Shown piece after piece: positions 20,677 through 32,385 of a stretch of DNA of 48,686 bases; the first letter of the stretch is position 1; each line of letters opens with the position of its first letter. The DNA comes from a virus, in IMG/VR virus record IMGVR_UViG_3300035670_000333, positions 1 through 48,686 of that record; one strand, given 5' to 3'. The notes below the pieces were generated by a model. That model was given only the letters and a program-made list of their open reading frames with translations, searched no databases and was not told the origin of the DNA. The position numbers were made by a program, and so were the translations under genes.

Positions 20677-21052
20677 TTTTCCTACTCATTGTCGACTTGC
20701 TAATTCCGGTGAGCTTCGAAATCATGGTCATGGATGTCCCAGCCTTGATTACTTTTTCCACCAGATCCCAACTTACATTTCCGGTCTCGCTACCGAATAG
20801 CAACTCCCTAATGTCTTCAAGCGATTTGGGATTTATCGCTCCACCTGTCTTGGTGGACTTCTTCGTTATCTTGGAAATGATGTTGTGGTGAATTTTGTTA
20901 TTTGCAATTTTTGCTATCTGCCTGTTCGAGAAAACCCCGAAGTCAGAGATCTGCTTCACCAGAGGCAGGAGAGAGTCCCTCTCAGCGGTCTCAGAATCGT
21001 CCCTGAGACGAATTGAGAGGGCAATAGCTAAAACTACGTCGTGCTTGTTCAC
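20663..21052 (-). CDS. helix-turn-helix DNA-binding protein
   Basis: The 129 aa product has two candidate helix-turn-helix segments, FGVFSNRQIAKIANNKIHHNI (about 38-58) and AGTSMTMISKLTGISKSTMSR at the C-terminus, the second being the clearer. It is basic overall. It lies between primase-helicase and resolvase, overlapping the former by 4 bases. It may be a regulator of early transcription or a replication accessory protein. No family is recognised. Confidence 0.7.
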   Translation of the reverse strand: MNKHDVVLAIALSIRLRDDSETAERDSLLPLVKQISDFGVFSNRQIAKIANNKIHHNIISKITKKSTKTGGAINPKSLEDIRELLFGSETGNVSWDLVEKVIKAGTSMTMISKLTGISKSTMSRKIGSI

Positions 21053-23265
21053 ATCGTCTCCAAAACGGTTCTAGAGTTATCTACATACACACGCATACGG
21101 CCTTGAGACCTTAGCGCTTCCAGCATCTCGTCAAACTCACGCTTCTTCTTGTTGCTAAAGCGCTTGTAAGCCTCGTCGTAACGCACCTTGCCACCCTTGG
21201 TGACCACAAATGCCTCCAAGCTGTCGACTTCTCGTGCCCACTCGGACTCGGAGATCGATGCAGCCATGCGCACAAGGTTGCGGAACCAGCCTTCTGCGTA
21301 GTGAATTGCGATGACAACGTGTCTAACTTCAACTTCGTCCGAGCGGTCATACATCGCTAGCAAGATTGCACACTTCCAAATGGATAGTGCCATACGCTGG
21401 CGCGAAGGCTCAATCGAGTCCTCGTTAGGGTGACCTTCGGTGAAGCTTCCCATGTCCCACTTGAACTTGTTGAAGCGCGATAGTGCCTCGTCGGTCATGC
21501 GAATTGGTCTGGGGAACGGAGCGCCCTTCTTTTCCCACCACAGCTTGCTGTCGTAGATGGAACGGACGATATTCTCCATTTCGTAGTCCTGTGCAACCAC
21601 AGTTTCTTCTTCTGGTGCCTGCTCTACCGCTTCGAGCTCAAAAGTGCGCTCTGGTGCGTCTGCAACAACGTACAAGAAACGTGCTAAGAAGCCTGAACGG
21701 AAGTAGTCCACAGTCAGAATCTCAGACACCTTGCTGGTGATACCCATTAGATACATGATGAAGTTAGTCTCAGCACGATCTGACTGGACGGCGGACCTGG
21801 CGTTGGTGCCACCAGTCGAGCGAATAACTACCGGAACGTGTCCGTCGTAAAGCTCGGTGAACTGGTCAGCAGCAGTTGCCATGTATGTCTTGGTCACGAA
21901 CTCCTTGAACATACCCTGAACTTCATCGCGGTGGAATAGCGAAGTCATCTTGTCGCGACCAGATAGGTGCTTTACAAGACCTTCAGCAGTTACGTTCGAA
22001 CCGATGTCAATCTGGTAGCCAACATATTTCTCGTAAGCACGAAGCATACGGAGCATTAGCTGACGGCTGGTTGACTTACGGCTCAGAGTGGTCTCACCCA
22101 AAAGCATGAACCATAGGTTTAGCCCGAGCTTGCCATACTTCGGCGTTCCATAGCCTGTGTCAGAAAAAGCAGCAGATAGTAGAGTGAACGCGGATGCAAT
22201 CTGATACTCGATAGCACCATCGGTCTTCTTGCGGGCCCATGCAACATACTTGTCGATGAAGGTTGGGCATGCAATAACAGTATTGCGCTCCTCGCGAGTT
22301 AGGAAATCGATAACCCTGTCATCTTGAACATGGGAAACCGCTGCCTGCTCTTCTTGGATAGCCATAGCCTGCTCTGGAGTGTCTGGAGTCAGGTATGAAG
22401 CCTTGGCACGAAGCACTTCACGCCACAGATCGCCATCTGGGTCTAAACGCTTTGGGCGATTTGGGTGGTGATACTTATTGCACTTTGCGTGCCTAGCGAC
22501 TGCAAAGACTTCTTCAGCAGACAACCCTGCACGGAATAGCTCCAGCTCCAGCCTCCAGAGCATCTTGCTCATGTCGGCATTTGGCATTGGCTCCTCGGTG
22601 TAGAGGGTCATGATGTTGTTGTCTGCTGGTAGCTTTGCCAGAATCTTGATTAGCTCAGGAGTCTCTTTTGGCATTGGCTCGTTCAACGGCTCAGTCGGTG
22701 ACTCAACCTGAACATCTGCGTAGACCTGCTCCAGCTCTTGGATGGTGTAAACCAATCCAGAAGCTTCGGCTGTGACATCCTGTGCTGGCTGATACTTCGT
22801 GTTTTTGCTTCCCGGAATACGAAGTAATTTGGTGGGGTTCCAGCCGGAGAGGTCACAGCCTTGCTCCTGATGTGCGTATGCAATCTTCTTTGAGAGCATA
22901 GCAACTCTGTGTGGCTCGTAGTCGGTGTCTAATAACCAGTAGGCGTGCCAGCGGTCGTCAGATGTCTGCACAACGATGCTAGGGGGCATCCTGAAGTGCT
23001 TAGGGTGACAAAGATCGGCATCTGCATACGCTACTGCAACGCTCTTGGCGTTCTCGCGGATACGGCGCTCTTCGTAAAACTTGATTGGCGAAAAGTAAAG
23101 GTCCTCACCAGATCTTTCCTCAGCATACTGAACCATCTCGTCGAGTTCGTCTGGGTAGCTAAAGAACTTCTGGATTGTCGGGTTACCGCTGAAATCCTTT
23201 GTAACGATTGTGGCGTAGCCAGCGCCTTCCCCGAGTATTGACTCGAGAAACTCCTTTTTCTCCAT
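21049..23265 (-). CDS. primase-helicase (RepB/AEP-type primase with DUF3987-like ATPase)
   Basis: The 738 aa product has an N-terminal primase-like domain with VAYADADL (about 78-85, metal-binding acidic pair), HAYWLLD (107-113) and RIPGSKNTK (149-157), the signature order of RepB-type archaeo-eukaryotic primases. The C-terminal ATPase has GETTLSRKST (390-399) as Walker A and belongs with DUF3987-like helicase domains. It primes and probably unwinds DNA at the phage origin. The start ATG follows GAAAGGATGAAGCC. The 5' leader contains a tRNA-like element. Confidence 0.85.
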   Translation of the reverse strand: MEKKEFLESILGEGAGYATIVTKDFSGNPTIQKFFSYPDELDEMVQYAEERSGEDLYFSPIKFYEERRIRENAKSVAVAYADADLCHPKHFRMPPSIVVQTSDDRWHAYWLLDTDYEPHRVAMLSKKIAYAHQEQGCDLSGWNPTKLLRIPGSKNTKYQPAQDVTAEASGLVYTIQELEQVYADVQVESPTEPLNEPMPKETPELIKILAKLPADNNIMTLYTEEPMPNADMSKMLWRLELELFRAGLSAEEVFAVARHAKCNKYHHPNRPKRLDPDGDLWREVLRAKASYLTPDTPEQAMAIQEEQAAVSHVQDDRVIDFLTREERNTVIACPTFIDKYVAWARKKTDGAIEYQIASAFTLLSAAFSDTGYGTPKYGKLGLNLWFMLLGETTLSRKSTSRQLMLRMLRAYEKYVGYQIDIGSNVTAEGLVKHLSGRDKMTSLFHRDEVQGMFKEFVTKTYMATAADQFTELYDGHVPVVIRSTGGTNARSAVQSDRAETNFIMYLMGITSKVSEILTVDYFRSGFLARFLYVVADAPERTFELEAVEQAPEEETVVAQDYEMENIVRSIYDSKLWWEKKGAPFPRPIRMTDEALSRFNKFKWDMGSFTEGHPNEDSIEPSRQRMALSIWKCAILLAMYDRSDEVEVRHVVIAIHYAEGWFRNLVRMAASISESEWAREVDSLEAFVVTKGGKVRYDEAYKRFSNKKKREFDEMLEALRSQGRMRVYVDNSRTVLETM

Positions 23266-23290
23266 GGCTTCATCCTTTCTTGTTGGCTCG

Positions 23291-23362
23291 GTGGTGGTCC
23301 CAGAAGACGTAGTTGAAGATTTGGTTAGGGATTATGAATTAGTCAGACTCATAACCACCACC
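23291..23362. repeat. inverted repeat in primase leader
   Basis: GGTGGTGGT near 23291-23299 pairs with ACCACCACC near 23354-23362. A nested TTATGA/TCATAA repeat lies inside near the right arm. It sits between the tRNA-like element and the primase start and could form a long hairpin in the leader RNA. Confidence 0.5.
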
Positions 23363-23368
23363 AAGCCG

Positions 23369-23439
23369 TGCCCCTAGCAGGAATCGAACCTGCACAACCG
23401 CAAGAGAAAGGAGTAAAATTGCGGTGCTCCATGAGGGGC
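23369..23439 (-). ncRNA. tRNA-like element 1 (acceptor and T arm, no normal anticodon arm)
   Basis: Read on the minus strand (position n = 23440 minus coordinate), bases 1-6 GCCCCT pair with AGGGGC near the 3' end, followed by A. The T arm GCAGG-TTCGATT-CCTGC is canonical. The middle does not fold as D and anticodon arms: GGAG (10-13) can pair with CTCC (27-30), and ACCGCAA (15-21) with TTGCGGT (37-43), which cross and would form an H-type pseudoknot. The middle also contains CTCCTTTCT, identical to the 16S rRNA 3' tail. It lies between the DUF669-like gene and the primase gene in the same transcript. It could be a processing site or a decoy. Confidence 0.6.
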
Positions 23440-23479
23440 GAATGTGCGTTTTAGGAGACGCACCCCTCCGCCCATTAGC

Positions 23480-23944
23480 TTACTGCTCTTGCCAAACGGT
23501 GGTTGCACCGATTGCAGCAAGTGCCTCAGTTGCGGATTCACGCTTGTTGAATCCTGCAACTTCGTTGGTTGCTGGGTAGTCACCCTCAGCCTCGCGAATC
23601 TTTACGCGAACGCTGACTGGCTTACCCAAGATGTCGTTGATCTCTGGAACGCTGAACGCACCCTCGACCTTGTAGCCAAGACCGGAGAAGAAGCTCTCAA
23701 ACTTCCAGAAGTCACCAGCAACATACATTGGGATGTAGGTGAAGACACGGCGGTTGTCATACTGACCGCCCTGAATACGGAGCTGGACATTCCAGCGTGG
23801 CTTACCTGCGTTAGCACCCGACTTGACCTGCTCGGCCTTTACTTCGAATACAGTTGCGTCGTAGGTGCCGACAGGGATTGGTCCTAGGTCGCTAGAACCA
23901 GTTGATGGGGTGTAGTCCGATGGGACGTTGATCGTGAAGCTCAC
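23480..23944 (-). CDS. DUF669-like single-stranded DNA-binding protein
   Basis: The 154 aa product is beta-rich with PIPVGTYDATVFEVKAEQVKSG, PRWNVQLRI, YDNRRVFTYIPMY and the C-terminal ATNEVAGFNKRES, the layout of the DUF669 family that accompanies Sak4-type recombinases and acts as a phage SSB. It overlaps the ATPase gene start-to-stop by 4 bases. It is expected to coat ssDNA during replication and annealing. Confidence 0.8.
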   Translation of the reverse strand: MSFTINVPSDYTPSTGSSDLGPIPVGTYDATVFEVKAEQVKSGANAGKPRWNVQLRIQGGQYDNRRVFTYIPMYVAGDFWKFESFFSGLGYKVEGAFSVPEINDILGKPVSVRVKIREAEGDYPATNEVAGFNKRESATEALAAIGATTVWQEQ

Positions 23945-31440: not shown

Positions 31441-31611
31441 TTCCTCGACCATGGCTCGGACCTTGCTTCTCGCTACTCCGTAGGCTTCATAGCGACCATG
31501 GGCATAATCCGTGTCGGAGTTGTCACCCATGACTTCACAGAGCTGGTAGTGGTTCTCTGCTTCGGCTTCCTGCTCGGTTAGCCACCCCAGAACTTCTAGC
31601 AACTCGCGCAT
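31426..31611 (-). CDS. small acidic helical protein
   Basis: The 61 aa product reads MRELLEVLGWLTEQEAEAEN and ends SKVRAMVEELTRR. It begins at a start overlapping the stop of the Api92-like gene by one base. The -35 of the possible promoter for 31380 lies within its 3' end. The function is unknown. Confidence 0.6.
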   Translation of the reverse strand: MRELLEVLGWLTEQEAEAENHYQLCEVMGDNSDTDYAHGRYEAYGVARSKVRAMVEELTRR

Positions 31612-32225
31612 TAGAGCTCCTCGCTTGGGTTAGAAGCCAACAACTCGATCTTGCGTGGGCAGTCGTCATACCAGAACTCTGAGTCATCCTCATACTCACA
31701 CTGGCAGTCTCGACCGATGTCCTCGTTGTCAGCGTGGGAATTTGGGATGTCCCACTCTTTGGAGATACAGAACTCGCCGTTTAGGTTCACGGCTTCTCCG
31801 CCCCAGCCCTGCTCCTCTTCCCAGCTGAACTCGATGTCAAGGGTTGGGAACTGCTGGCAAATCGCCTCGAAGACTGGACGTGGGTCTGCCCATGCTGTAT
31901 TGAACTCCACGGAAATCTGGTTCAGGGCTGGAACATTCACCATTAGCGAGTCGCAAGCGTCCCACTTGGTGCCCCAGTTCAGGACGTTCCAGTTATACCA
32001 GTTGTTCGCGGTGTTTCCGACTCGCTCGCCACCGACAAAGCCGTTGGTGCCGTCATACTCTCCGGACTCGATAGCGTCCTGTGGTGGGGTCACAAAGCCC
32101 CAGAAGCTAAAGCTGGTCTCGGTGTCGCGTGGGTTCGATCTTGCGGTGTTGAAGAAACGCTCAGCTTCCTCTGGTCGCAGGTTCGTGTTGTTGATTGTGA
32201 TTGTGTTGAATACCCAGTTTGGCAT
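31611..32225 (-). CDS. Api92-like / DUF1281-type protein
   Basis: The 204 aa product starts MPNWVFNTITI and contains NNWYNWNVLNWGTKWDA, the Trp/Asn-rich signature of the ferredoxin-like domain of Api92-like phage proteins, followed by FNTAWADPRPVFEAI. The C-terminus is acidic with several cysteines (CQCEYED, DDCP). The family is common in phages and plasmids and its role is unproven. The start follows AAAAAGGAGTAGTA. The leader carries a hairpin and a tRNA-like element. Confidence 0.8.
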   Translation of the reverse strand: MPNWVFNTITINNTNLRPEEAERFFNTARSNPRDTETSFSFWGFVTPPQDAIESGEYDGTNGFVGGERVGNTANNWYNWNVLNWGTKWDACDSLMVNVPALNQISVEFNTAWADPRPVFEAICQQFPTLDIEFSWEEEQGWGGEAVNLNGEFCISKEWDIPNSHADNEDIGRDCQCEYEDDSEFWYDDCPRKIELLASNPSEEL

Positions 32226-32270
32226 TACTACTCCTTTTTGTTGTGTGTGTTATTTAGTTGTGTTGTTGCG

Positions 32271-32343
32271 TCCTGCCAGTAGGAGTCGAACCTACTAATG
32301 CCCACACAAGAGAGAAACACACACGGCATTTTCCAAAGGCAGG
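32271..32343 (-). ncRNA. tRNA-like element 2 (same unusual architecture)
   Basis: On the minus strand (n = 32344 minus coordinate), CCTGCC (1-6) pairs with GGCAGG near the 3' end, followed by A, and the T arm GTAGG-TTCGACT-CCTAC is canonical at position 49. The D and anticodon arms cannot form. GAAA (11-14) can pair with TTTC (27-30), and ATGCC (15-19) with GGCAT (42-46), giving crossing stems in the same order as in the element at 23369-23439 but with different bases. It lies in the leader of the Api92-like gene, just after a strong hairpin. Confidence 0.6.
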
Positions 32344-32348
32344 TGGGT

Positions 32349-32385
32349 GACTAGGGGGAGTATTGGGGGGGGCTTCCCCCTAGTC
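32349..32385 (-). other. 11-bp leader hairpin
   Basis: GACTAGGGGGA (32349-32359) pairs perfectly with TCCCCCTAGTC (32375-32385). On the minus-strand RNA it is near the 5' end, 14 or so bases after the expected start, and immediately 5' of tRNA-like element 2. It may protect the RNA end or act as an attenuator; no T run follows. Confidence 0.7.

Follow-up and report, generated by a model that had tools for sequence, protein, structure and literature searches.

A tRNA-like element with an anti-Shine-Dalgarno apical loop upstream of a phage primase gene

The stretch of DNA analysed here, referred to as the window, is a phage record 48,686 bases long. A tRNA-like element, e1, occupies positions 23439-23369 of its minus strand, between an SSB-like gene and a primase gene, and is part of the phage replication operon, immediately 5' of the primase (Table 1). 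A separate H-type pseudoknot lies 4 nt 5' of the e1 acceptor stem, and a branched hairpin lies between e1 and the primase ribosome-binding site (RBS). A second tRNA-like element, e2, is found elsewhere in the window, 5' of a gene encoding an Api92-like protein.

Table 1. Features of the two tRNA-like elements and their surroundings in the window
Feature	Position	Strand	Basis or remark
Primase gene, 3' of e1	21049..23265	(-)	PHROG 10514 DNA primase, E 3e-173
AGAAAGGA, primase leader, 8 to 15 nt 5' of the start codon, putative e1 loop partner	23273..23280	(-)	
Branched hairpin between e1 and primase RBS	23285..23367	(-)	z -3.49; motif AAATCTTCAACTACGTCTTC in internal loop
tRNA-like element e1	23369..23439	(-)	Parse and covariation; 64.9 bits with the family covariance model (e1 is among its seed sequences)
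e1 acceptor, 6 bp, GCCCCT/AGGGGC	23439-23434 / 23375-23370	(-)	
e1 GG	23430-23429	(-)	
e1 long stem, 7 bp, ACCGCAA/TTGCGGT	23425-23419 / 23403-23397	(-)	
e1 apical loop, 15 nt	23418-23404	(-)	
e1 loop segment TCCTTTCT, complementary to primase RBS region	23405..23412	(-)	
e1 T arm, GCAGG-TTCGATT-CCTGC	23393-23377	(-)	
e1 discriminator A	23369	(-)	
H-type pseudoknot	23443..23469	(-)	Helix pair parse and helix variety among 30 phages
Pseudoknot helix 1, GGAG/CTCC	23469-23466 / 23457-23454	(-)	
Pseudoknot helix 2, GTGCGT/ACGCAC	23463-23458 / 23449-23444	(-)	A-rich loop TAAA
SSB-like gene, 5' of pseudoknot	23480..23944	(-)	Weak PHROG matches to SSB families; Pfam DUF669
Gene 3' of e2, Api92-like	31611..32225	(-)	DUF1281_C
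AACACACAC, directly 5' of the Shine-Dalgarno of the post-e2 gene, possible e2 loop partner	32243..32251	(-)	
Second tRNA-like element e2	32271..32343	(-)	Parse; 49.8 bits with the family model (e2 is among its seed sequences)
e2 loop segment GTGTGTGTT	32316..32324	(-)	

Read 5' to 3', e1 consists of GCCCCTC-ATGGAGC-ACCGCAA-TTTTACTCCTTTCTC-TTGCGGT-TGT-GCAGG-TTCGATT-CCTGC-TAGGGGC-A. The original prediction gave no strand, and the T arm, 6-bp acceptor and terminal A that it quoted are all present when read on the minus strand; its placement of the element before a primase gene is likewise correct. It also held that the D and anticodon arms are missing, which agrees with our parse: the conserved GG is kept, no D stem is formed, and the position of the anticodon arm is taken by a hairpin of 7 bp whose loop measures 15 nt. 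The e1 fold is more stable than that of shuffled sequences (z = -2.84, with 0 of 200 shuffles as stable). The element is genuine, being neither a chance fold nor an ordinary tRNA.

Relatives were collected as 80 viral-contig loci found via the primase. Each of the 78 relatives whose upstream DNA is long enough has an element of the same kind before the primase, two loci (L039 and L077) being left out because their upstream region ends at the contig edge. The 61 parsed elements, in a few of which the parse is ambiguous (L002, L036, L058, L068), share a common plan of a 5-7 bp acceptor, a short linker in which a UGG hardly varies, a stem whose sequence differs widely between elements, a CU-rich loop, a T arm, the closing acceptor strand and an A. 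This discriminator A is invariant across the parsed elements. Many of them do not have G1. In 33 homologues that were aligned on sequence only, paired cells make up 82.2% versus 63.4% in shuffles, and doubly changed cells number 162 versus 55; the pairing signal is lost when the partner strand is slid. This covariation supports three helices: the acceptor, the T arm and the long stem in the place of the anticodon arm.

A scan with the family covariance model gives one strong match per record, always 5' of the primase, and only the window has two. Some relatives carry real tRNAs or several hundred bases between element and primase. A looser pattern, TTGGTA...CTCCT, yielded among the matches listed 22 loci that were scanned with the model, a single one of which is a family member (L191, before a primase). 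Similar layouts away from a primase were seen at L139 1139-1204 (35.3 bits) and at L154 3776-3864 (32.6 bits), the loop of the latter containing ATCACCTCCTTTT, a match to the bacterial 16S rRNA 3' end. DNA similarity searches among named phages returned no homologues and short T-arm matches at most. Among named phages with distant primases, the family model found no strong match in Molivia, Nonagon, CN1A and CMP1, and the weak matches of 20-27 bits in Yappy, Jojan60 and Frankenweenie were not counted as members. In Clavibacter phage CN1A (L097, ~2925-2975), a very short structure of acceptor and T arm, GGGCATT...GGTGCCC, lies 5' of the primase; this structure, which the family model does not recognise, is possibly a reduced relative of the element. 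A search of bacterial genomes returned no relatives of the primase, and the sequence pattern gave two matches there, which are due to chance and are not recognised by the family model.

The original prediction further proposed a pseudoknot-like core formed by two crossing stems, and saw covariation-like support for it in the second element. The letters for GGAG/CTCC pairing across the long stem are indeed present in e1, and the long stem itself shows compensatory changes. The crossing helix, on the other hand, performs hardly better than shuffles in the alignment of 33 homologues (covariation of 0.321 versus 0.297) and scores about equally when its partner is slid by 1-3 columns; in 26 of 27 sequences its third pair is disrupted. 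Moreover, two relatives (L018 and L027) have 5-nt loops that offer no possible crossing partner. The proposed core was therefore rejected, with only the long stem conserved of its two helices. The conserved GG is better read as the elbow guanines of a tRNA, which would meet the T loop, and the CU-rich strand of the proposed crossing helix is better read as an RBS-complementary loop.

A true pseudoknot does occur at this locus, separate from e1. The same H-type pseudoknot is found 5' of the element in nearly every relative, and among 30 phages helix 1 occurs in 16 and helix 2 in 13 distinct versions. As the parse selects paired solutions, the evidence is this variety of helices and not the percentage paired; judged by it, the H-type pseudoknot is a true, covarying and conserved structure. 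In Arthrobacter phage Molivia (L094, 2560-2760), the region from SSB to primase has the H-type pseudoknot (CGTC/GACG and TGAGCA/TGCTCA) ahead of two tRNAs, a tRNA-Gly and one of undetermined type. Since the pseudoknot stands there before a tRNA-Gly, it may predate the tRNA-like element. Hairpin modules related to the branched hairpin 3' of e1 occur in L037, L065, L066 and L070; their outer stems change and the internal motif TCTTCRAYTACGTCTTC is constant, and they lie between the tRNA-like element and either the primase or the next element.

The apical loops are CU-rich, and 53 of the 61 contain CUCC, resembling the anti-Shine-Dalgarno tail of 16S rRNA. In a comparison with the 3' end of actinobacterial 16S rRNA, the longest shared stretch averages 7.25 nt versus 5.17 nt for shuffled loops. 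We conclude that the apical loop is an anti-Shine-Dalgarno sequence; that such a loop faces the primase RBS is the best hint at a function, and one that the original prediction did not mention. Its complementarity to the RBS of its own primase amounts to 8 bp in the window, 10 bp in L048-L057, L023 and L069, and 11 bp in L002 and L071. For 38 representatives, the own loop-RBS match averages 7.79 versus 6.51 ± 0.18 with exchanged partners, a difference reached in 0 of 100,000 permutations, and the pairing energy is -15.4 versus -13.7 kcal/mol (3 of 100,000 permutations). When shared ancestry is removed by comparing 23 sister pairs, the longest match is better in 8, worse in 3 and tied in 12 (P = 0.11), and energy favours the own partner by 13 to 6 (P = 0.08). 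At the sister-pair level the preference for the own RBS is thus suggestive, and weaker than in the permutation test; the loop is probably tuned to the RBS of its own primase.

The position of this RBS among all genes of its phage points in the same direction. It comes first or shares first place in 23 of 46 cases, against 2.3 expected, with related phages counted separately and mechanically called open reading frames as the comparison set. The primase has a mean loop-match percentile of 0.13 and the exonuclease gene one of 0.21, compared with 0.49 for the remaining same-strand genes. Matches shorter than 6 bp are found exactly in the four elements nearest the start codon, which partly belong to one clade; because their spacer measures only 11-15 nt, the loop could hardly reach the RBS. 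In the window, the e1 loop has longer matches to the RBSs of three other genes than to that of the primase. Action of e1 on these genes was considered and set aside: the matches extend up to 11 bp, but loops from other phages also reach 11 bp there, and an anti-Shine-Dalgarno loop is bound to match many RBSs. In five relatives (L041, L049, L051, L055, L057), the loop also has matches of 9-12 bp to the RBSs of two genes lying upstream, the exonuclease and the Sak4-like gene, a hint that there may be more targets.

The second element has the layout of e1 with different bases and belongs to the same family. Its stem, AATGCC/GGCATT (32330-32325 / 32302-32297), encloses a loop of 22 nt (32324-32303) on the minus strand. 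Of the two crossing stems that the original prediction saw in e2 as in e1, the homologues support the long stem and do not support the crossing helix. ARAGORN labels e2 a tRNA-Thr, an assignment that we reject, as it has no cloverleaf and no proper anticodon arm and its loop measures 22 nt. The loop, GUGUGUGUU, matches AACACACAC 5' of the Shine-Dalgarno of its own gene, so e2 can, on paper, pair with the leader of that gene; both segments are of low complexity, and shuffled loops match as well in 192 of 5000 cases. There is no H-type pseudoknot 5' of e2. A strong hairpin is found there instead, with a perfect 11-bp stem, GACTAGGGGGA/TCCCCCTAGTC (32349-32385, minus strand), directly 5' of the element. 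The upstream regions of relatives of the post-e2 gene show no element of this layout.

We consider that there is about an even chance that e1 belongs to a tRNA-like leader of the primase mRNA that tunes translation by loop-RBS pairing. The leader would start with the H-type pseudoknot; next would come a tRNA-like element in which the acceptor, elbow GG and T arm were kept and the anticodon arm was turned into a hairpin with an anti-Shine-Dalgarno loop. As the complementarity of 8 bp in the window and up to 11 bp in relatives suggests, the loop would pair with the RBS region of the primase, brought close by the branched hairpin (23367-23285), and so limit or gate primase translation. Changes to the tRNA-like fold or its removal, by protein binding or by host tRNA-processing cleavage, would free the RBS, with the tRNA-like half serving as a handle for the host proteins or enzymes involved. 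Comparison of the relatives shows the helices together with the pseudoknot, the constant location of the element before the primase gene and the conserved CUCC-type loop. Repression in cis appears likelier than activation by the tRNA-like fold. Against this reading stand the weak preference for the own RBS among sister pairs, the longer matches of e1 to other genes of its phage, and those relatives in which element and primase are set apart by real tRNAs or by several hundred bases.

Four other readings were weighed. The element could be cut out by host tRNA-processing enzymes and persist as a stable small RNA that acts in trans, its anti-Shine-Dalgarno loop silencing or pacing a number of genes for replication and recombination. 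The exonuclease and Sak4-like matches, the percentile of the exonuclease gene, the real tRNAs between element and primase in some relatives and the two similar elements in unrelated surroundings (L139 and L154) all fit such a role; the single copy per phage in a fixed place before the primase does not, and a structured leader 1-5 nt 5' of the acceptor together with the frequent lack of G1 would probably make a poor RNase P substrate. We regard this reading as unlikely. An acceptor stacked on a T arm is the substrate shape of RNase P and RNase Z, and it was originally suggested that cleavage by these enzymes separates the primase message from the upstream genes, or that the enzymes are absorbed by the element. 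The invariant discriminator A and the location between two genes on the same strand agree with such a processing or stability tag, which would nevertheless leave the conserved stem, the anti-Shine-Dalgarno loop and the upstream pseudoknot unexplained and seems to us improbable.

Direct activation of primase translation by the tRNA-like fold, the loop match being a by-product, would account for the retention of the short-loop elements L018 and L027 and has a parallel in the 2- to 6-fold rise in translation observed in vitro when tRNAs or tRNA-like leaders are grafted before genes (PMC9142559). It does not require CU-rich anti-Shine-Dalgarno loops, yet nearly all phages keep them, and we judge it quite improbable. 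That the element is an ordinary or decaying tRNA gene is very improbable. Such an origin would agree with the ARAGORN call for e2, with the real tRNAs found at the same place in relatives and with a score of 24.8 bits for e1 against the Rfam tRNA family (RF00005). This score is below the gathering threshold of 29, however, and e2 gives no match; the tRNA-like half, an acceptor stem with a TTCRANN T arm, is present, but none of the 61 parsed elements has a D stem or a 5-bp anticodon stem with a 7-nt loop, the stem they have instead is held by compensatory changes, and the real tRNAs coexist beside the element.

No Rfam family reaches its threshold on e1. Matches to Plastid-ycf2 (RF04354; 30.3 and 26.8 bits against a gathering threshold of 65.7) were discarded, as they lie on the opposite strand and the shared part is the antisense of the T arm and acceptor. 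Neither the yjdF aptamer nor C4 antisense RNA appears among the Rfam matches up to E 10, and no description of this tRNA-like leader family was found in the open-access literature. The nearest published precedent that we found is the yjdF riboswitch, a tRNA-like mRNA leader whose T-loop side is paired with the Shine-Dalgarno when the switch is off (PMC9142559). Like e1, it has a tRNA-like shape with elbow loops, stands 5' of a gene and contains a part that can pair with the Shine-Dalgarno; it controls translation in cis, the role proposed here for e1. It differs in having a four-way junction and a small-molecule ligand, the riboswitch responding to azaaromatic compounds, whereas e1 has no D stem and no known ligand; the Shine-Dalgarno partner is the T-arm side in yjdF and the loop at the anticodon position here, and a separate pseudoknot stands 5' of e1.

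Other leader RNAs offer more partial parallels. The C4 antisense RNA of P1/P7 and the CI RNA of P4, whose operon includes a primase-helicase, are RNase P-processed antisense leader RNAs complementary to sites in their own operon. If the e1 loop acts on its own operon, they would resemble e1 as phage RNAs that derive from the leader of the operon they target, but they are not known to have its acceptor/T-arm half. The E. coli thrS translational operator likewise controls ribosome access through tRNA mimicry in a leader; it mimics anticodon arms for the synthetase, whereas e1 has lost the anticodon arm. In plant-virus tRNA-like structures, such as that of TYMV, a pseudoknot is also followed by a tRNA-like fold, but these stand at the 3' ends of RNA genomes and have a pseudoknotted acceptor, while e1 is internal in a DNA phage transcript and has an ordinary one. 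The elements form a new RNA family, which would act, if our reading is right, like other tRNA-like or antisense leaders.

In that case, phages would have turned the tRNA scaffold into a regulatory leader, with the anticodon exchanged for an RBS-complementary loop, and the regulated gene would be the starter of phage DNA replication. The family would take its place beside yjdF among the tRNA-like regulators of translation, being unrelated to it in sequence and layout, and would provide a clear test of host tRNA-processing enzymes as a switch for phage gene expression. A bolder reading, which we consider unlikely, is that of an RNA family in which the anticodon arm was swapped for a copy of the ribosome's anti-Shine-Dalgarno; matured by the host and reading RBSs instead of codons, it would regulate genes of replication both in cis and in trans and have members beyond the primase context (L139, L154).

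Annotation tools miss such elements or label them as tRNAs, as with the tRNA-Thr call for e2. A further tRNA-derived form to compare is tmRNA, of which a version reduced to the tRNA-like domain (TLD) is known from mycobacteriophage DS6A (PMC4131195, PMC11915505). It shares with e1 an acceptor and T arm, a stemless D-loop region containing GG and a long stem where a tRNA has its anticodon arm. In e1, however, C3-G70 replaces the G3-U70 of tmRNA, neither a tag reading frame nor the tmRNA D-loop motif is present, and the anti-Shine-Dalgarno loop sets it apart. Even at E 10, nothing in the window is matched by the Rfam tmRNA model (RF00023). It does recognise tag-less mini-tmRNAs of ~80 nt near or beside the element at two loci (L025 9531-9611, 61.4 bits; L098 2802-2884, 61.8 bits). 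Further mini-tmRNAs were noted by eye in L006, L007, L009, L031, L039, L040 and L075, and unannotated ones are present in Streptomyces phages LuckySocke, Alone3 and BRock and in Stenotrophomonas phage Jojan60.
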